This document shows, in pieces, positions 3,001 to 24,485 of a stretch of DNA of 48,024 bases. The position numbers and the translations under genes are program-made. Positions within the stretch are counted from its first letter, which is position 1, and each line of letters begins with the position of its first letter. The DNA is from Candidatus Gottesmanbacteria bacterium (GTDB taxonomy: Bacteria; Patescibacteriota; Microgenomatia; UBA10105; UBA927), in the NCBI GenBank assembly GCA_016214885.1, contig JACRMP010000011.1, forward strand, positions 1-48,024, in the 5' to 3' direction. The notes below the pieces were generated by a model that saw nothing but the letters and a program-made list of their open reading frames with translations, did not search any database and was not told the DNA's origin.

Positions 3001-5680
3001 AACCACTGACCGCACACCAGTAAGCGACTGGCAAATAGATCTTCTGAAAAACAACCAGATGTATGACAATGCGCAAGTCACCGGTAGGGACGGGTGTTAC
3101 ACCTGGACAAATCTTACCCCGGGAAGTTACAGCACGCAGGAAGAATCACAGTCTGGCTGGCAGCATCTTGGCAGCACATCGCACGATTTCGGCACGTTGG
3201 AAAACGGGCATACCTACTCACACACGTTCGTCAATACCCACATGGGAAAAATTATTGTGGAGAAACAAACGCTTCCCGACGGAAATACCCAAAGCTTCGA
3301 CTTTACGGCTGACTATGATGCAAACGGATTTGCATTGACAGACGGAGCACAAAACGACAGCGGCTTTCTTATGCCAGGCACTTACAGTGTTGCGGAAACC
3401 GGTGAAACGGGATGGGATCTGACTGACGCCAGCTGTTCCGACCAAAGTGAACCCACTGCTATCAGTTTGTCTGCCGGAGAAACAGTAACCTGCACATTTA
3501 CCAACACGAAGCGTGGACACCTGATCGTACAAAAAACGACTATTCCAGCAGATGACTCCAACGTATTTAGTATCCTGGCCACCGGCTCCGGCACGATCAC
3601 CGGCGGAGGAGCAGGTTCTATAAGTGATGATACGGACAAAAACTACGAAGTCACACCGGGCACGTATTCCGTGAGCGAAACCGTACCGGGTAACTGGGAT
3701 CAAACGGCCAACACATGTACAAATGTGGCAGTAGCTGCGGGAGAAACCAAAACCTGCGAAATCACCAATACCAAGCGCGGACATGTCACCGTGATCAAGT
3801 ACTATGACCACGATATGGACGGCACGAAAGACGCAGGAGATCAAGTACTTGGAGATACTGGTGTAGGATCCGAAATAGAGGCAACCAGATGGGAAATTCA
3901 CCTTGTCGGCACAGATGTTAATGCGTATCAATGGACCGGCGCTCAGACTGCAGGTCAGGTGACATTTAGTGATCTGACGCCGGGAGCATTTACCCTGAGT
4001 GAACAACTCAAAACCGGCTGGCTGCAATCCAATATTTCCTGCGGCAATGAGTCTGCAATTGACAAAGACAATAGCCACCCGGTTACCGTAACTGCGGGAC
4101 AAACGACCACATGTACCATCGGAAATTACGAGCAGGGCAGAATTATCGTAGAAAAACAAACCAACCCTGACGGCAGCAATCAGGAATTTGACTTTTCTAC
4201 AAATTATGACAAAAACGGGTTTGTGTTGTCGGACGGTGAACAAAACAACAGCGGATATCTGAATCCAGGAACCTACAGCGTGTCGGAAACGGAACTCACC
4301 GGCTGGACACTCACCAATACGGTTTGTACGAGTTCGAATGAGGATACTGAATCTGCAGATAATCTTCAGCTTGATCCGGGAGAAACGATCACCTGCGTAT
4401 TTACGAACACCAAGCGCGGACGCATTATTGTAGATAAAGTAACAGATCCGAGCCGCGATCAAACCGCATTTGCTTTTACGGCTAGTGGTAGCGGGTATGG
4501 AAACTTCTTCCTGTCTGACTCCGACGAACCAAATGACCAGTCGCTGTTACCGGGCTCTTATGCAGTTTCCGAAACCGTTCCCACCGGCTGGGATCTTTCA
4601 TCAGCCATCTGTATGAGTTCGCACGAAGACAGCGAGTCTGTTAATTCTCTGAACCTTTCAGCAGGAGAAGTCATTACCTGCACATTTACCAATACCAAAC
4701 GTGGAACGGTCATCGTAACCAAATATAACGATGAAAACGGAAATACTGTACGCGATGAAGGAGAAGACGTGCTCTCCGGCTGGACGATGAATTTAAACGG
4801 CGATGAAGAACAGGAAGTCACCAACAATGACGGAGAAGCAATATTTGAACACCTGCTTCCCGGCCGCTATACGCTTACCGAAGATCTGCAAAAGGGCTGG
4901 GAGCAAACTCAGTTAAGCTGCGGCGGCAATGAGGAGTTCTTTGCTGATGACACGGCGGACGACACCATAGATACCGGAGCGTTTACGCTTTCCCCGGGAG
5001 AAACACAGTACTGCGTTGTCGGAAACCGCCGCCTCAATCCGATCCTTACGATTACGAAAGACAACAATGCGACAGGCGACAAGGCTCCCGGCGAGAATGT
5101 CCTGTTCACACTCACAGTTACCGCAACCCAGAGCGCGGCGTTTAACGTAGTGGTGACCGATTTACCTGCTGCAGGCTTCACATACCGGAGCGGCTCATGG
5201 ACCAGTGTCTCCACCGCCAGGGGAGACCTTAAAATGCTTGGTATCACCACCGAACCGGCATATCATTCACCCGGCGTTTGGATATTGGGAGATATGGTCG
5301 AGAACGAAACGGTTACCCTTACATATATTGCTGATATCAGTTCCGATCAAAAACCGGGGCTTTACAAAGATTTGGCCTGGGCATACGGATGCAAATTTGA
5401 AACGGATTGTGCGGTAAACGACGGCAATGATGTAGTCGCCATCGCGGTAAGCCCCGGATACATCGATGAAACGAACCACGTGGGCACAGGAGTGAACGTC
5501 GTCAAAAGTACACAAAACGGAGCTACCCTAAATCCGACAACCGGCGAAGTATTGGGAGCGTCTACCGAACTTCCCGCCACCGGGGCGGATGAGGCATGGC
5601 TTACCTTTGCGGCTCTGTTGTTCCTTATGGGTATCGGACTACTAACTGCCGGGAAATATGCACGGAGGCTCCATGTTTAA
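2..5680 (+). CDS. Large secreted/cell-wall-anchored adhesin (5'-truncated by window edge) with prealbumin-like and SdrD-B-like repeats and an LPATG sorting signal
   Basis: The frame is open from base 2 (PTEQTTTPTTTSSEPPKETG...), so the ORF start at 122 is internal. Repeats of the type 'GxYSVSETxxTGWxxxxxxCxxx...LxxGETxTCTFTNTKRG'. Asp-rich Ca-binding-like loops (DTDGDGVKDTGEP, DNDGDGTLDANDL). C-terminus LPATGADEAW-hydrophobic-KYARR. Confidence 0.85.
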   Translation, partial: PTEQTTTPTTTSSEPPKETGPPEQGQILDGASTEAAPSPTVTPEQPEEGVLHASVLQNVEAASLDLDNIDPSNSATLSTDKADYAPTDTAIITGTGFKPNHDYNITVSSADEPATSTTDTITTDVDGAFVYAYQLDGIYRPNYKVVVTNNGGHTIAATTFTDSAAVDQYSQCANDTGTGYTSGDTGCQWINGNLQSNNSAYYEGDATPQRLYLTGLINGTHTVVIKYGTTKGGKHAYDFVTDDTFSESWITNAEFCEGLTGFGDCATLTPNLSSLIPTDSNAGGFDVAQANRHFKIRNGNFVSVGTPTLISGSYAGDSETTILLTFNVDTNTCANKVVDHGKNPNPDECPVLITWGEHVSKQSDWGTGNSAVNISGSPYHVSLETVDGASAGSRDNQMQAGAIKGSITIIKDSQPNSAQDFSFTTTRTGLTSFNLDDDADVTLSNTKFFGNLDAGSYTVSEIAATGWTLSNITCVDPTQNSTSGLPTAPTATINLAAGENITCTFTNTQQNGHLTVQKTTIPAGSQQSFAITATGSGTITGGGAGSITDSTDQTYEVTAGTYSVSETVPTGWTQTSNTCSNVVVAAGGNSTCLITNTQKGHIVVRKVTSGADDTFTFTTGGTGYNGFSLSHGQSNDQEVIPGSYTVSETALSGWSSDGGSCDNGETPNSLDVEAGETVTCTFTNTKLRNITACKYDDTNGNGTRDTSEPLLDGWNMTLTPGSVTQTTVNGCTTFTNLSPGNYSIAETLKTDWANTTPLSQNVTLTSSQNETVYFGNFACATISGMKWEDTDGDGVKDTGEPALPDWTINLNGTQASDVTDANGQYSFKVCSAGTFTVTETIPNTQVWYQTSPGGNSPNHQVEVTSGGSYTGKDFGNAKYAKIYGVKYRDNDGDGTLDANDLTATLSGWVFDLYDGTTNAVLGTYTTLSDGYYEFTGLLVNKTYYVLEQLKPGWTQTIGPTPTPTPFAVQSGETKQINFANFENMAVTVCKVEDADGSLTTTTDRTPVSDWQIDLLKNNQMYDNAQVTGRDGCYTWTNLTPGSYSTQEESQSGWQHLGSTSHDFGTLENGHTYSHTFVNTHMGKIIVEKQTLPDGNTQSFDFTADYDANGFALTDGAQNDSGFLMPGTYSVAETGETGWDLTDASCSDQSEPTAISLSAGETVTCTFTNTKRGHLIVQKTTIPADDSNVFSILATGSGTITGGGAGSISDDTDKNYEVTPGTYSVSETVPGNWDQTANTCTNVAVAAGETKTCEITNTKRGHVTVIKYYDHDMDGTKDAGDQVLGDTGVGSEIEATRWEIHLVGTDVNAYQWTGAQTAGQVTFSDLTPGAFTLSEQLKTGWLQSNISCGNESAIDKDNSHPVTVTAGQTTTCTIGNYEQGRIIVEKQTNPDGSNQEFDFSTNYDKNGFVLSDGEQNNSGYLNPGTYSVSETELTGWTLTNTVCTSSNEDTESADNLQLDPGETITCVFTNTKRGRIIVDKVTDPSRDQTAFAFTASGSGYGNFFLSDSDEPNDQSLLPGSYAVSETVPTGWDLSSAICMSSHEDSESVNSLNLSAGEVITCTFTNTKRGTVIVTKYNDENGNTVRDEGEDVLSGWTMNLNGDEEQEVTNNDGEAIFEHLLPGRYTLTEDLQKGWEQTQLSCGGNEEFFADDTADDTIDTGAFTLSPGETQYCVVGNRRLNPILTITKDNNATGDKAPGENVLFTLTVTATQSAAFNVVVTDLPAAGFTYRSGSWTSVSTARGDLKMLGITTEPAYHSPGVWILGDMVENETVTLTYIADISSDQKPGLYKDLAWAYGCKFETDCAVNDGNDVVAIAVSPGYIDETNHVGTGVNVVKSTQNGATLNPTTGEVLGASTELPATGADEAWLTFAALLFLMGIGLLTAGKYARRLHV

Positions 5681-6662
5681 AAAATATATCGTTCTCACCA
5701 TGGCGGGTTTTGTTGCACTAGCCATAACCGGCAGAGTGTATGCTGCCAAAAATGTCAGCGTTAGAATCCAGCAACCCAAATCACCGATCAATCAGAATAA
5801 TTTCAATGTAAGTTTCGTCGCCCTTGATCTGCAGGGGAGAACCGTAACGGTCAAATGCTTCCAGAAAGGCCCGTCCGACGGCGCATTTTCCCAATTCGGA
5901 TCCTCCCAAACATTTACCAATGGGGGAAACAGCGGCAATTGTGCGGTAGACAATTCCGTGATGAACGACGGAGAGGGATCCTACGCATTCAAAGTAGAGG
6001 CAACTGCAGGAGACGGAACGGGCGATAATTTCGATGACGAAACGACAACCGTGACCTACGACACGAGCGGTCCCGGGGATTTACGCGATTACAGCAAGAA
6101 CAGAACGAACGCATGCGAATACACCATCCACTTTAAAACAGCAAACGACGCTGGTGCTACGGTAAAGGCAGAACTCTACCGTTCCGACACTGTACCATTT
6201 AACGCAGATAACGGAACCCGCATACAGGTAATCTCAATCGGCTCAGACGAATCCAAAAACGTCACGGACACGCCGCCTGACTGCAACAAAACGTATTACT
6301 ATGCCGTGCGCGCATTTGACGCTGCAGGAAACGGGTCAGCGCTTATCGGAGACAATGTCAGTACAATCACCGTCATCAATCCGACCGCATCCCCGGCACA
6401 GGGAGCCATTCCGTTAAACGGAGGCACCAATACCGGCGGTAGCGTGCTCGGGCAGGAATCCACGACAGGAGCCATAGGGGCTACCGGCACAAGTGGGGAA
6501 ACCCTGGGCGAAACCAGCCCGAGCGCTGAAGTTGTGGAGACGGGTAAGAAAGATGACACGAAAAAATCCATGGCTCGAAACCTGATGCTCGGCGGTGGTA
6601 TACTGCTTTTAGGAGCAATCCTGTATGCCATCTGGAAAAAGAAACAAACCCCGGCCACATAA
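5673..6662 (+). CDS. Secreted membrane-anchored surface protein (signal peptide, Ig/FN3-like region, C-terminal TM)
   Basis: ATG at 5673 behind GGAGG. N-terminal signal MFKKYIVLTMAGFVALAITGRVYA. C-terminal TM followed by WKKKQTPAT, no LPXTG. Confidence 0.7.
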   Translation: MFKKYIVLTMAGFVALAITGRVYAAKNVSVRIQQPKSPINQNNFNVSFVALDLQGRTVTVKCFQKGPSDGAFSQFGSSQTFTNGGNSGNCAVDNSVMNDGEGSYAFKVEATAGDGTGDNFDDETTTVTYDTSGPGDLRDYSKNRTNACEYTIHFKTANDAGATVKAELYRSDTVPFNADNGTRIQVISIGSDESKNVTDTPPDCNKTYYYAVRAFDAAGNGSALIGDNVSTITVINPTASPAQGAIPLNGGTNTGGSVLGQESTTGAIGATGTSGETLGETSPSAEVVETGKKDDTKKSMARNLMLGGGILLLGAILYAIWKKKQTPAT

Positions 6663-17877: not shown

Positions 17878-17906
17878 TTGACAAAAATGACAAATTGTGA
17901 TATAGT
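17878..17906 (+). promoter_or_regulatory. Strong sigma70-like promoter for the T-box operon
   Basis: TTGACA (17878-17883), 17 nt, TATAGT (17901-17906). Confidence 0.8.
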
Positions 17907-18142
17907 TTTTATCAACAATTGAATACGAAAAGCACTGAAGGTGATGAAGTAGTAGCTAGTCTGAGACAAGAGAGAGGAGACGGTTGGTGCAAGATCTCCC
18001 GTTAGATTACCTGCGAAATACTCGCCTGAGCTGAAAGGTTGAACATCCGCCAGTTGGCGGACAGTAGACCAATCCGGGTAAGCCCGTAACAGCAGAATGT
18101 GAATGTCGCAAATGCGGAGTTCACAAATGAGGCTTAGGTAGA

Positions 18143-18167
18143 ACCGACCTCTGGTCGGTTTTTTTGT
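18143..18167 (+). terminator. Terminator-like hairpin inside the T-box leader, upstream of the antiterminator motif
   Basis: ACCGACC-TCT-GGTCGGT followed by a T-run. Confidence 0.6.
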
Positions 18168-18240
18168 GGCTAAAATGCCGCTTTTTAGCGCGTGAACGCT
18201 CCCCTAAGCAAACCAAGGTGGTACCGCGTGGTAAAAAAAT

Positions 18241-18288
18241 ACCCCGCCCTTGTTCCTGATTATTTCAGGGATGAGGTCGGGGTTTTTT
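18241..18288 (+). terminator. T-box terminator hairpin
   Basis: ACCCCG...CCTGA-TTAT-TTCAGG...CGGGGT followed by T6. Confidence 0.85.
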
Positions 18289-18290
18289 GT

Positions 18291-18384
18291 GGCAACAGCA
18301 TAGTGATAAGCAAATATTGCTGAGGTAGCCCCTCAAAGCAACTGGGGCAACAGCATAGTGATAAGCAAATATTGCTGAGGTAGC
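18291..18384 (+). repeat. 39-bp direct repeat in two copies (18291-18329 and 18346-18384)
   Basis: GGCAACAGCATAGTGATAAGCAAATATTGCTGAGGTAGC is identical in both copies. The second copy runs into the 5' end of the tRNA-like element. Confidence 0.95.
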
Positions 18385-18458
18385 AAAGGGGACAACTGCG
18401 GCTGTCGGTTAGACAGCTGGTCAACAGATCTACGGAGGTTCGAATCCTCCCCTCAGCA
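18374..18458 (+). tRNA. Class II tRNA-like element (Tyr-like body) with atypical anticodon loop CGGTTAG
   Basis: Acceptor GCTGAGG/CCTCAGC; D arm GCA-AAGGGGACAAC-TGC; anticodon stem GCTGT/ACAGC; variable arm GGTC-AACA-GATC; T arm GGAGG-TTCGAAT-CCTCC; discriminator A followed by CCC (no encoded CCA). Confidence 0.7.
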
Positions 18459-18499
18459 CCCGTGTTATGCATTATTTTTTGCACGGAGAGGAGGTGTAT

Positions 18500-19426
18500 A
18501 TGAACGATAAAGAAATATCGCGGTCATTGGGCCGTGAATTTGGTCAAGGACTACGGAGAACAAGCGGCTACGAAGAAACCAGAGCACGAATGGAAAGTGA
18601 GGGCTTGTCCGATGAGCTTCTCAACAGGACTCCGCCGGTGGGACTTAATCTGCAGCTTTTATCGGAAATGTCCGGTATCCATTTACTATCGCAGCGCATA
18701 AACCGGCACCCTGTTTCCGTCGCCATGCTGGGACTAGCGAGCATTGATGGGGTAGAGGATACCGAGCGGTTTGTACAACACGCACTCAACACAACACTTA
18801 GTGATTTCCATGTCGTCGACATTGATGAGGATATTATTGCCGAAGTAAACAAACTCAAGCGGGAGAAATCTCTTTCCCATGTAAGCCCGCATCTTATCGA
18901 TGCACGCCACACGGGGCTCGCCGAAAGATCAGTAGATATCGTCATAAGGGATCATACGGGTAACTGCTGCCCTCCTCATATCGATCGGGAAATTGACGCG
19001 GAAACCGCCCGGATTCTTAAGCCGGGGGGTACTTCTATTGTCAATATATCAACAAGCGAGCTACTTCCCACGTCCGAAAACCGGCAGGTTGTAGACCTTT
19101 CGAACGGCATACGTCGGAACACTGCGATAACTGACGCGTTACAAAATCATATATACGATCTGGCACAATTTAAACAGGAATTCGGTGAAGAAATGGAGAG
19201 CTTGCGGGGAAATCTTGTCGAAATTGAGCACCCAGGAGGCTTTGTTGTATTCGGCGAAGATCCCGATGGTCATGGGGAATGGTTCAGGAGTTTGGGTGAT
19301 CACCTGAATCTATGGCAGCGGTTAGGGTTTATTGTCAGCGATCTTAAAAGCAGGTTTGGCAACGATAGCCATACTCCGCCGCTTATGTGTATGCGTCACA
19401 ATATTGTGCTTACCAGGAAGGAGTAA
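18500..19426 (+). CDS. Putative class I SAM-dependent methyltransferase
   Basis: Strong SD (GAGGAGGTG) before ATG 18500. DARHTGLAERSVDIVIRDHTGNCCPPHIDREIDAETARILKPGGTSIVNIS resembles Rossmann MTase post-motifs. Confidence 0.55.
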   Translation: MNDKEISRSLGREFGQGLRRTSGYEETRARMESEGLSDELLNRTPPVGLNLQLLSEMSGIHLLSQRINRHPVSVAMLGLASIDGVEDTERFVQHALNTTLSDFHVVDIDEDIIAEVNKLKREKSLSHVSPHLIDARHTGLAERSVDIVIRDHTGNCCPPHIDREIDAETARILKPGGTSIVNISTSELLPTSENRQVVDLSNGIRRNTAITDALQNHIYDLAQFKQEFGEEMESLRGNLVEIEHPGGFVVFGEDPDGHGEWFRSLGDHLNLWQRLGFIVSDLKSRFGNDSHTPPLMCMRHNIVLTRKE

Positions 19427-19432
19427 CTCTCT

Positions 19433-20557
19433 ATGAAACTACAAACACGTTGTGTTCATCAAAACGGTCCGTTACTTACTGACGGAGACATTGTTACACC
19501 TGTCCATACGTCGGTGATTTTTGCCATGCGCACCCCTTCTTCAGTAAGCGGTGCCCAATACGGAAGGATACACAACAAAACGAGGGCAAGTGCAGAATCA
19601 GTACTGGCCGGAATACACAATGCAAAATTCGGAATTACAGCATCCAGCGGATCCGCTGCAATTACTGCAGTATGTTTGCTGTTACACCAAAAAAGCATTG
19701 TGCTGCATCACACCGAACTGTATGAAGGAACAAGGCGTATTCTGCGAACGATTATGCAGCCATTCGGGGTGACGGCTGTTCCTGTTAATTTTCACAATGT
19801 ATCGCTTGCCGGCAACGAAATAGCAAAAATAAAGCCATCATTAGTGTGGCTGGAAACACCCACAAATCCATCGCTCCGGCTGCTTGACATTGCCCGCATT
19901 GCAGCGATTGCCCGAAAGAATGAGGCATTACTTGCCGTCGATACAACCATGTGCTCCGGCCTGCTGCAACAACCGCTCGTACATGGTGCCGATATTGTCG
20001 TGGAAAGCCTCACCAAAAATCTTAATGGCCACAGCGATGCGCTTGGCGGATTTGTGGGTACAAATAACAAAAACCTTGCGCAGAAATTACGGTTTCTTAT
20101 ACAAACGACGGGTATGGTGCTTGACCCTGTTTCGGCATCTCTTATATTACGCGGTATCAAAACCGCTCCCGTACGCATAAAAGCGCAGCAGCAATCCGCG
20201 CAAACTGTAGGCAAATGGCTGAGCCATCATCCGCTTATTCGGCAGGTATTAATTCCGGGAAAAATGAATAGCGAAGAACGGCTCCTGTTACGACGACAAA
20301 TGTCCGGGAGGGGACAGCTTATTTCATTCATATTGAAACAACATGCTGACCCGATATCGACCATAGAAAAACTCCGGTTGATTTGCATAGCACATTCTTT
20401 CGGAGGAACAGAGACGATAATCCAACACCCGGCATCTATGATGGATTGGTCCCGACTAACGGAAGATCTCCCGGACAGACAGCTGCTGCGCCTTTCTGTC
20501 GGATTGGAACACCCTGAGGACATTATAAACGACCTAAAACAGGCTCTGGAACAATAG
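19433..20557 (+). CDS. Cys/Met-metabolism PLP-dependent enzyme (cystathionine gamma-synthase/lyase family)
   Basis: TPVHTSVIFA, YGRIHNKTRASAE, ASSGSAAI, WLETPTNPSLRLLDI, ESLTKNLNGHSDALGGFV (PLP-Lys motif), LSVGLEHPEDIINDL. Confidence 0.9.
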   Translation: MKLQTRCVHQNGPLLTDGDIVTPVHTSVIFAMRTPSSVSGAQYGRIHNKTRASAESVLAGIHNAKFGITASSGSAAITAVCLLLHQKSIVLHHTELYEGTRRILRTIMQPFGVTAVPVNFHNVSLAGNEIAKIKPSLVWLETPTNPSLRLLDIARIAAIARKNEALLAVDTTMCSGLLQQPLVHGADIVVESLTKNLNGHSDALGGFVGTNNKNLAQKLRFLIQTTGMVLDPVSASLILRGIKTAPVRIKAQQQSAQTVGKWLSHHPLIRQVLIPGKMNSEERLLLRRQMSGRGQLISFILKQHADPISTIEKLRLICIAHSFGGTETIIQHPASMMDWSRLTEDLPDRQLLRLSVGLEHPEDIINDLKQALEQ

Positions 20558-20589
20558 GTGTGCCTGTGATATAGATAAAGGAGGAAACT

Positions 20590-21777
20590 ATGGATACTAT
20601 TGAAGAACTGTTGACCAGAGGTGTGGAAAATATTATTCCGGGTAAAGAAAAACTCCGGGAGTTACTTTCCGGCGGCAAAAAGCTAAATATATATTTAGGC
20701 ATCGATCCCACTGCCACTCAAATCCATATCGGACATGCAGTGCCGTTACGAAAGCTTAACGCATTTGCCCAGCTTGGCCACAATGTCATGTTCCTTATTG
20801 GAGACTTTACCGCCCTTATCGGCGACACCTCTGATAAAGATACAGAACGGCCGGTGCTTACCAGCGAACAGATTCAGGCAAACTTTGAAACCTATAAAAA
20901 ACAGGCGGAAAAAGTTCTAGATTTTTCAAAAATAACGGTCGTTCATAACAGCGATTGGCTGAAAAAACTGGCCTTTACTGACATCGTCAAGCTTACCCAG
21001 CATTTTTCGGCCGGAGACTTTGTAAGCCGTGAACTTATCAAAAAGCGCCTCACTGAAGGAAAAAAGGTAGGACTCCATGAGCTTTTATACCCGGTCATGC
21101 AGGGGTATGACAGCTATTTCCTGGATACCGATATCCAACTCGGCGGCACCGACCAGACGTTTAATATGCAGGCCGGACGCGTGTTACAGAAGGATTTGCG
21201 CCACAAAGAATCATTTATTATCGCGAACGGCTTTCTGGAGGGCACCGACGGCCGAAAAATGAGCAAAAGCTGGGGCAATGCCATATGGCTCACTGACGAA
21301 CCCAAAGAAATGTTCGGGAAAGTCATGTCGCTCAGGGATGAACTGATCGTCCAGTATTTCACCCTGGCGACAAATATTTCTATGGATGAAATAACCAGGA
21401 TAAAAACCCGACTGGACGCAAAAGAAAACCCCATGACCCTCAAAAAAGAGCTGGCACACCGGTTGGTGAGCGAACTGCATTCGGAAGATCTGGCAAACGA
21501 CGCTACGGCAGACTTTGAGAAACGGTTCCAGAAGGGGAAAGTATCGGAGTCGGCGCTTCCTGTTGTGTCGCTTAACTCGCTCAAAACAGACAGCCCGACT
21601 GCTGACGCATTGGTTGCATTCGGCTTGGCGTCCAGCAAATCAGAAGCCAAGCGTCTCATTGAGCAAAAAGCGGTTAAAATTAACGGCATTGTAGTTGCTT
21701 CATCAAAGGATCCAGTCAAACTGCAGAAAAATGATACGGTTGAAGTGGGTAGAAAAGCTGTTAAAATTGAATCCTGA
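20590..21777 (+). CDS. tyrS: Tyrosyl-tRNA synthetase
   Basis: YLGIDPTATQIHIGHAVPLRKL, GGTDQTFNMQAGR, KMSKSWGN, C-terminal S4-like domain. Confidence 0.96.
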   Translation: MDTIEELLTRGVENIIPGKEKLRELLSGGKKLNIYLGIDPTATQIHIGHAVPLRKLNAFAQLGHNVMFLIGDFTALIGDTSDKDTERPVLTSEQIQANFETYKKQAEKVLDFSKITVVHNSDWLKKLAFTDIVKLTQHFSAGDFVSRELIKKRLTEGKKVGLHELLYPVMQGYDSYFLDTDIQLGGTDQTFNMQAGRVLQKDLRHKESFIIANGFLEGTDGRKMSKSWGNAIWLTDEPKEMFGKVMSLRDELIVQYFTLATNISMDEITRIKTRLDAKENPMTLKKELAHRLVSELHSEDLANDATADFEKRFQKGKVSESALPVVSLNSLKTDSPTADALVAFGLASSKSEAKRLIEQKAVKINGIVVASSKDPVKLQKNDTVEVGRKAVKIES

Positions 21778-22702: not shown

Positions 22703-24485
22703 ATGGATTTACAATTAACGTCCCCCGTCCAATATGTGCCCCGCGTCGGACCCCGCATGGTATCACTTCTCAAAAAAATCGGTATTGAAACCGTTTACCA
22801 GCTTCTCTGTACCTAACGAAAACCCTGCACGAAGGGGACACACTTAGTGCTTCGGGAAGAATTGACTGGTTCGGACAAAAAATCGTATTAAGTTCACCCG
22901 AATATGAAGTGCTTAAAGGCGCAGGGGAGCAGCAGACCAGCCTGCACACCGGCAGATTAGTCCCCGTATATCCGGAAACGGAGGGGCTTAGCTCCAAATG
23001 GCTTAGGGGCAGGATTGCATTTGTTCTGGAACAGTGCCTGCCGATGGTCAAAGAAACTTTACCGGATCACATACGGGCGTCCCAGCATTTTCCGCTTCTC
23101 ACTGATGCCATCAGGGAGATCCATTTTCCCAATAACGAACAATCTGCCAATCTTGCACGCCGCAGGCTTGCATTTGATGAAATCTTTCTATTGGTACTCC
23201 GGAGCAGACAGCAAAAACGAGAATGGAAAACGACATTGCGGGCAACCCCATTTACCCTGACCCCCCAAGCACAAAAAAAATTTCTTGGAAGCCTGCCATT
23301 TGTCCTTACGGAAGATCAACAGCAGGCTACAAACGAAATCGCATCCGATATGGCAATGCCTACTCCCATGAACAGACTCCTTGAAGGAGACGTAGGAGCA
23401 GGGAAGACAGTGGTGGCAGCAGCGGGTATGTATGCCGTTTGTACCCAGGGCAGCAGCACCGCCCTCCTTGCTCCCACCCAAATACTCGCACAGCAGCACG
23501 CGGCAACGCTCCGGGAAATTCTCGAAAAACCCCACGGCATACCGGTGCATCTCATCATGGGTGGATCCGCAAAAAAAACACTAATACCCAAAAACGCGCA
23601 TCCTGGTTCGGTGTTACCCAAAGGGGACTACTGCGGAATCAATCCAAACATGCACGGGTTCCTCACCAACTCACGATGACCGCAACGCCCATCCCGCGCA
23701 CCATTGCCCAGACAGTATTCGGAAATCTGGATCTTTCGGTTCTTCACGGGCTCCCCAGCGGCAGAAAACCGGTAAAAACTTGGGTAGTGCCCAAAAACAA
23801 ACGTACGGCAGCGTATGCGTGGATGAAAAAGGAATTAACAGAGTCCCACTCTCAGGCGTTTGTCGTTTGCCCGCTTATCGACGATTCCGAAACCCTTACT
23901 ACGGTACGCGCGGCATCGAGTGAACATACCCGCCTCACATCGGTATTTGCACCGCTGCACGTAGGATTACTGCACGGGAGGATGAAACCGGATGAAAAAA
24001 CAGCAGCGCTCGAACGCTTACGCCGCGGCAGTGACGATATTCTTGTATCTACCCCCGTCGTGGAGGTGGGTATTGATATACCGGATGCAACCATCATGGT
24101 GATCGAAGCTGCTGAGCGGTTCGGCCTCTCACAACTCCACCAGCTGCGGGGAAGGGTAGGGAGGCGCGAAAAACCCTCGTACTGCCTGCTGTTTACCGAA
24201 AACGAAACACCCGAGGTGTTAACCCGGCTTAAAGCACTGGAGACCGTGCACAGCGGTCCGGAACTGGCAGAACTTGATCTAACCCTCCGCGGTCCCGGCG
24301 AACTCTTTGGCACAAGACAGCATGGATTACCAGGATTTACGGTAGCAACCCTCTCTGATACCGGACTTATACAGGAGGTAAACCGCGAAGCAGATGCCCT
24401 TATGGAGGCTGATCCTGAGCTCTCACGGTTTCCCTACTTGAGAGAACGCGTCAATGAGAGTAAAATAGAGACTATTCAATCGTAA
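22703..24485 (+). pseudogene. recG: RecG-like helicase with two internal deletions/frameshifts
   Basis: N-term MDLQLTSPVQYVPRVGPRMVSLLKKIGIETVYQLLCT* (22703-22816), then frame 1 (YLTKTLHEGDTLSASGRIDW...GDVGAGKTVVAAAGMYAV), then frame 0 (FGVTQRG...LTMTATPIPRT...GRVGRREKPSYCLLF). Motif II (DEQH) segment missing. Confidence 0.9.

Follow-up and report, generated by a model that had tools for sequence, protein, structure and literature searches.

In Firmicutes, the Tyr T-box is a class I, transcription-terminating leader located before tyrS, the gene for tyrosyl-tRNA synthetase (TyrRS). Ribosome-mediated attenuators of the pheA/trp type combine a leader open reading frame (ORF) rich in the cognate residue with an intrinsic terminator behind it. 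Some starvation enzymes use little of the missing amino acid, although the survey describing this trait did not find low bias for tyrosine pathways taken together (Fasani and Savageau 2014, PMC4209129). Scavenging is thought to provide Patescibacteria with their amino acids, and a literature search retrieved no paper naming a T-box riboswitch with Patescibacteria or Candidate Phyla Radiation, or T-box with Microgenomates. Here we describe an operon at positions 17878-21777 of contig JACRMP010000011.1 (48,024 nt, the whole contig, called the window below), from the 1.12-Mb, 98%-complete genome of a Candidatus Gottesmanbacteria bacterium (GCA_016214885.1). The sequence relatives of this genome are Candidatus Gottesmanbacteria, Pacebacteria and Roizmanbacteria, all Microgenomatia (Patescibacteria). 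Comparison with them reveals a recurrent operon anatomy, apparently Tyr-specific regulation by two unrelated devices, a purge of tyrosine from the encoded enzymes and an exchangeable enzyme cargo. The locus is probably a tyrosine-starvation-induced operon for tyrosine supply (salvage). All evidence is sequence-based, relatives are counted as species representatives, and metagenome-assembled genomes can miss genes.

Organization of the operon and its T-box leader

On a single strand, a promoter is followed by a Tyr T-box, a class-II tRNA, a methyltransferase (MTase)-fold gene, a gene for a pyridoxal phosphate (PLP) enzyme and tyrS (Table 1). The MTase and PLP genes are separated by 6 nt, and the PLP gene and tyrS by 32 nt. 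An earlier note, made from the letters of the window, had already read this co-directional anatomy with a UAC T-box, and profile matches confirm it. Conservation of the gene order, which that note had put forward as a check, is borne out by two congeners (G005 and G001): both carry T-box, tRNA-Tyr, MTase, PLP enzyme and tyrS in identical order, and the arrangement is therefore neither a chance one nor a misassembly. A similar promoter lies at the equivalent site in both congeners and in G002.

Table 1. Features of the operon in the window
Feature	Coordinates	Strand	Evidence or detail
Sigma-70-type promoter	17878..17906	+	TTGACA-N17-TATAGT, extended -10; consensus
Tyr T-box leader, full-length, transcriptional type	17926..18254	+	RF00230
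Extra intrinsic-terminator-like hairpin + U7, within Stem III, upstream of antiterminator	18142..18165	+	-10.9 kcal/mol, z -4.3
Main T-box terminator, competes with antiterminator	18242..18288	+	-28.4 kcal/mol, z -6.6, U6 tail
39-bp direct repeat, including first 11 nt of tRNA	18291..18384 (18291-18329, 18346-18384)	+	exact match twice
tRNA-Tyr copy, altered anticodon loop CGGUUAG, body intact	18374..18458	+	class-II, 42.4 bits
Class I S-adenosylmethionine (SAM)-methyltransferase-fold protein, 308 aa, 2 Tyr	18500..19426	+	Pfam, structure prediction, PDB matches
Cystathionine gamma-synthase/lyase-type PLP enzyme, 374 aa, 2 Tyr	19433..20557	+	Cys_Met_Meta_PP PF01053, E 4e-95
tyrS, bacterial tyrosyl-tRNA synthetase	20590..21777	+	TIGR00234, 341 bits; sole match in this genome

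The leader aligns with model positions 1-219/219 of RF00230 (87.5 bits, E 1.3e-19). The Rfam cut-off is 93 bits, and the leader is therefore missed at the default threshold; its orthologue in G005 reaches 94.7 bits. The specifier UAC (18019-18021), in a GAAA-UAC context, matches the downstream tyrS, and GAA(A/C)UAC is kept in G005, G001, G002, G018, G023 and Pacebacteria. The T-box sequence AAGGUGGUACCGCG occupies 18215-18228. The source genome (G000) has six T-box matches, the Tyr one being the only full-length one; the other five (L002-L006) are short and precede, by eye, aspS, csaA-like/proS, valS, ileS and argH-like genes.

Stem III contains an additional terminator-like hairpin which, to our knowledge, is no feature of standard T-boxes. 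A Stem III hairpin with a T run, built from several differing stem sequences, was found in 11/12 Tyr T-box leaders (the window, L011, L012, L064, L058, L051, L092, L060, L067, L056 and L090); none was seen in the twelfth, that of G017, which is cut by the end of the scanned stretch. This hairpin may set a low expression ceiling or act as a pause site. A pairing of the GGUUGG loop of Stem I with this terminator-like hairpin was discarded as an idea, since it is not kept in G001.

The same enzymes under two predicted tyrosine sensors

Operon-type MTases were detected in eight of the 374 genomes of the class that were searched, and in 8/8 the order is MTase, PLP enzyme, TyrRS; a distant homologue in G087 is unlinked. 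The triad holders belong to three families and comprise the source genome, G005 and G001 (the Gottesmanbacteria genus), one Pacebacteria locus (L051) and four loci from Roizmanbacteria and kin (L052-L055; three Roizmanbacteria/Microgenomates records and a fourth from the same family). The Pacebacteria locus carries a Tyr T-box of its own, and it shares with the other four the absence of an adjacent tRNA. In L052-L055 (family f7) TyrRS is of the archaeal type (NCBIfam PRK08560, 366 bits, tested on L052). No T-box precedes these four loci; instead, they carry tandem Tyr-codon-rich short ORFs (for example MENKNFWIRQTSYYYYELLYGGEPFIA and MKNLSNKNFYFYFYSALGGGECDC), each followed by a GC hairpin and a T run. 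The Tyr-run leader peptides read SYYYYELLYGG, TSYYYRELLYGG, GHYYYQLLYGG and SFYYYQLLYGG, and the upstream leader is FYFYF-type or YYY. Such ORFs are expected by chance at an average of 0-0.025 per shuffle, and the pairing of a cognate-rich leader ORF with a terminator marks these elements as putative ribosome-mediated attenuators.

Within L052-L055 (~5420-5950), leader 1 of the FYFYF type ends in GCDC, ECDC or TCDC in 3/4 loci, and leader 2 reads YYY.ELLYGG or YYYQLLYGG. An ORF of ~80-90 aa lies between both attenuators in L052 (5571-5850) and L053 (5567-5818).

The same enzyme pair is thus kept with two predicted tyrosine sensors that are unrelated to each other and with two TyrRS types. Because the triad persists without the tRNA and across regulators and TyrRS types, the enzymes appear to be tied to tyrosine supply and not to the tRNA. 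The operon tRNA-Tyr is best seen as part of the T-box/tyrS backbone, not of the enzyme module.

A tyrosine purge in the encoded enzymes

Tyrosine is nearly absent from both enzymes. The operon MTases contain 1-3 Tyr (0.28-0.98%) and the operon PLP enzymes 2-4 (0.53-1.14%), against a window background of 3.04%. Non-operon PLP homologues of the same class (n=17) have 2.1-5.2% Tyr. Between these controls and the operon PLP enzymes, Tyr is the most depleted of all residues, 4-fold (p 4e-5), the next being 1.3-fold; Phe is unchanged and Cys doubled. Only two tyrosines are kept in all eight operon PLP enzymes, both invariant in the controls too, and we take them to correspond to the active-site residues Tyr60 and Tyr114 in human cystathionine gamma-lyase. 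The G087 MTase homologue, outside a Tyr operon, contains 2.69% Tyr.

The PLP enzyme retains the invariant catalytic lysine (K195), the Tyr/Arg pair and the carboxylate-binding Arg. It has YEGT (YDGT in G001) where same-class controls with the motif have YGGT, and among the listed NCBIfam equivalogs all scores are far below cut-off, the best being 272 of 513 bits. The operon PLP enzymes form a single clade (support 100/99).

The null hypothesis of the earlier note, simple co-regulation with tyrS, would make these ordinary genes of sulfur-amino-acid metabolism, placed on the tyrS transcript by coincidence. MTase and cystathionine gamma-lyase neighbours do occur in known methionine-to-cysteine operons, and cystathionine gamma-synthase/lyase is what the PLP enzyme most resembles. 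Nevertheless, this explanation falls short, given the loss of tyrosine from the enzymes and their continued linkage under differing regulators and TyrRS types. The order is kept with two of each, the purge is Tyr-specific while Cys, far from being depleted, is doubled, and the operon PLP enzymes stand in their own clade. Already disfavoured on these grounds, simple co-regulation seems improbable to us.

The start of the MTase-fold protein is placed at 18500 and not at the upstream ATG at 18467, which merely adds 11 residues, because the orthologues begin at 18500 and a ribosome-binding site precedes it. Pfam scores of 24.9-25.2 bits lie at the cut-offs, and SAM motif I is degenerate (LGLA..DG, not GxGxG). 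The predicted structure (predicted local distance difference test, pLDDT, 83) retrieves Rossmann-like MTase folds from the PDB with E 1e-11 to 1e-9. AzeJ-like SAM cyclisation was among the activities suggested by these matches and was set aside as no more specific than the others. Searching the PDB with a profile of the family yielded no strong relative, and viral contigs contained no relative of the MTase. Two Cys/His-rich motifs, RDH..NCCPP and DSH.PPL.C.RH, are invariant in the operon family and missing in G087.

An exchangeable cargo slot

Across the tyrS loci surveyed in this taxonomic order, the place between T-box/tRNA-Tyr and tyrS is a slot for varied genes. It holds another MTase and a MetE-like protein in G002; an Asp/Glu racemase in G018 and G016; a TyrRS-like protein and a racemase in G023; class I/II aminotransferases with GNAT-like, TyrRS-like or HEPN partners in G008, G024, G017 and G012; and TyrRS-like proteins in G009, G022 and G011. 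In G025 the slot encodes a prephenate dehydrogenase and a protein with weak resemblance to a dehydratase, and a DAHP-synthase-like gene lies upstream. No cargo is present in G013, G006, G019 and G021, and probably none in G004 and G020. Pooled slot cargo contains 0.95% Tyr, compared with 3.27% in neighbouring genes. Cargo that is not Tyr-poor comprises the G008 aminotransferase, the G025 genes (for which the comparison set of neighbours is small) and the HEPN gene (5.3%), which is probably a passenger.

Two Tyr-poor slot families (A: L059:1432-2301, L090:2256-3212, L089:1642-2112; B: L066:2097-3101, L090:1201-2199, L092:2279-3349) resemble, by eye, shortened class-I aminoacyl-tRNA synthetases (IADxHA, DERFFD/DERWFD). 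For the TyrRS-like slot proteins, PDB sequence searches found no relative and Pfam gave almost no match, apart from one 0.025 hint to tRNA-synt_1b. In G011 (L090:3209-5348), two tyrS genes are consecutive, the first truncated to 310 aa.

The strongest rival to a supply operon is detoxification, which would also explain the exchangeable cargo. Here, the enzymes would protect TyrRS by modifying or destroying tyrosine analogues or TyrRS inhibitors from host or neighbour bacteria, with the T-box sensing blocked charging and raising TyrRS and the resistance enzyme together. The cargo types are ones used on amino-acid-like drugs (GNAT by eye, methyltransferase, aminotransferase, racemase, PLP lyase), TyrRS itself is of several types, and a low Tyr content would be needed under a TyrRS block as well. 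However, the MTase-PLP pair has persisted between very distant relatives (~40-45% identity), which is not how a rapidly changing resistance gene behaves, and the prephenate dehydrogenase/dehydratase-like cargo of G025 points to supply. We consider TyrRS protection unlikely.

The operon tRNA

The window tRNA differs from the operon tRNA-Tyr of G002 at 8/85 bases, of which the anticodon loop accounts for three and the variable region for five; the acceptor, D, anticodon and T stems show no difference, and the variable stem is still paired. Judged by this alignment, it is a tRNA-Tyr by descent. Its anticodon loop has changed from CUGUAAA to CGGUUAG, and ARAGORN calls it Asn(GUU). A decoding tRNA-Tyr has a GUA anticodon in a U33 7-nt loop, whereas this copy has G at position 33, the anticodon GUU, which cannot match the UAC specifier, and a pairable C32-G38 that would leave a 5-nt loop. 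The earlier note's view that the tRNA is non-decoding probably applies in this genome. Canonical tRNA-Tyr(GUA) is present at the equivalent place in G005 and G001, and before differing genes in G002, G009, G018 and G023. Elsewhere in the window's own genome, an intact tRNA-Tyr(GUA) lies on contig 9 and a tRNA-Asn(GUU) on contig 3, and the operon copy is therefore spare; that it might be the sole tRNA-Asn or tRNA-Tyr was rejected on the same evidence.

The earlier note had further proposed that TyrRS charges this non-decoding tRNA, which then acts as an aminoacyl donor or sensor. On this view, Tyr-tRNA would be the substrate of the MTase/PLP pathway. Charging is thinkable, as the altered loop retains G34, U35 and the long variable arm, and the body matches that of G002 at every position other than those of the anticodon loop and variable region. 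The proposal fails to account for the five Pacebacteria and Roizmanbacteria loci with the same enzymes and no adjacent tRNA, for the occurrence of this tRNA beside other cargo in G002, G018, G009 and G023, and for the ordinary GUA anticodon in sister operons with the same enzymes. It appears very improbable.

As for why the tRNA is there, one tentative answer is that it is kept for its shape, so that RNase P/Z cuts the coding part free from the T-box leader. The second tRNA-Tyr would make decoding dispensable, so the loop could change. The confinement of changes to the anticodon loop and variable region, with the variable stem paired, and the other tRNA-Tyr and tRNA-Asn genes are in line with this. 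Against it, the variable region drifts freely anyway, and an adjoining partial duplication suggests plain birth-and-death of tRNA copies. This duplication is represented by the 39-bp direct repeat (Table 1), which is not present in G005 or G001 and looks like the remnant of a local duplication. Selection for shape is possible, although we lean against it; the broader description, a decaying or purely processing-related copy, is probably correct.

The tRNA gene ends in ACCC, with no encoded CCA. Directly 3' of it, before the ribosome-binding site, lies a hairpin CCGUG...CACGG (18460-18486), and similar pairing can be read in G005 and G001. Between T-box and tRNA-Tyr in G023 (L092 ~3540-3620, - strand), a degenerate-tRNA-like stretch, GCTGGGG...GGTTCGAGTCCTCCCCCTAGC, was seen by eye; cmscan gives it no tRNA score.

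A probable role in tyrosine supply

Induction by tyrosine shortage, as the earlier note had suggested, is well supported by the predicted UAC T-box, by the purge and by the putative attenuators. During a shortage, the uncharged GUA form of tRNA-Tyr, encoded by the second gene elsewhere, would bind the T-box leader and prevent termination, and read-through would give a single transcript yielding TyrRS and the MTase-fold/PLP two-enzyme module. The dispensable tyrosines would have been nearly all lost so that the pair can be made without tyrosine. Genes that are induced by a shortage and built for synthesis without the amino acid are most simply supply or salvage genes. We infer that the pair most likely provides tyrosine, via an unusual route or by salvage, to a cell that lacks the shikimate pathway: chorismate synthase was detected in 0/14 genomes checked and in 14/14 control genomes, and prephenate dehydrogenase only in G025 among the 14. 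A supply role also fits because the slot cargo includes a dehydrogenase, aminotransferases and racemases.

Several points weigh against this interpretation. We know of no reaction that connects this MTase/PLP pair with tyrosine; SAM motif I of the MTase is degenerate, and the fold matches of this protein are only generic. The cargo varies widely among relatives and several tyrS loci have none, so that it must be dispensable. Leader 1 in Roizmanbacteria also contains Phe codons, and a low Tyr content indicates need during starvation, not tyrosine as product.

As for the chemistry, the MTase-fold protein and the YEGT-type PLP enzyme could form a two-step tyrosine route bypassing the shikimate pathway, for example by PLP-driven side-chain exchange onto a phenolic acceptor or by release of tyrosine from an alkylated form, with other lineages filling the slot with different enzymes for the same end. 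This combined proposal is a long shot. If the operon does supply tyrosine, some Patescibacteria actively handle tyrosine shortage with enzymes of their own. The operon also draws attention to an uncharacterised pair of enzymes with a substrate narrowed to the tyrosine economy, and the purge is a simple signature by which further starvation-rescue enzymes without an assigned function could be recognised from sequence.

Downstream of tyrS, recG (22810-24401) is split into two reading frames, with a frameshift between 23524 and 23606; it is either a pseudogene or an assembly/sequence error.

Comparison with known systems

The leader shares with the Firmicutes Tyr T-box the Stem I AG-bulge/distal loop, UAC specifier, Stem II, pseudoknot region, T-box sequence, terminator and tyrS target. 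Unlike it, the window transcript is found in Patescibacteria, includes a tRNA-Tyr gene and two enzyme genes, and has the extra terminator-like hairpin in Stem III. The putative Roizmanbacteria attenuators resemble the pheA/trp type in their cognate-rich leader ORF and intrinsic terminator, but they are paired in tandem, Tyr-cognate and placed before an MTase-PLP-archaeal-type-TyrRS operon. The PLP enzyme has the fold, PLP lysine, Tyr/Arg pair and carboxylate Arg of the cystathionine gamma-synthase/gamma-lyase family (PF01053) and departs from it in its YEGT motif, Tyr purge, separate clade and linkage to TyrRS. Finally, the avoidance of the missing amino acid by enzymes apparently needed in starvation recalls the low cognate bias described previously (Fasani and Savageau 2014, PMC4209129), whereas in this operon the purge is ~3- to 4-fold and nearly total.

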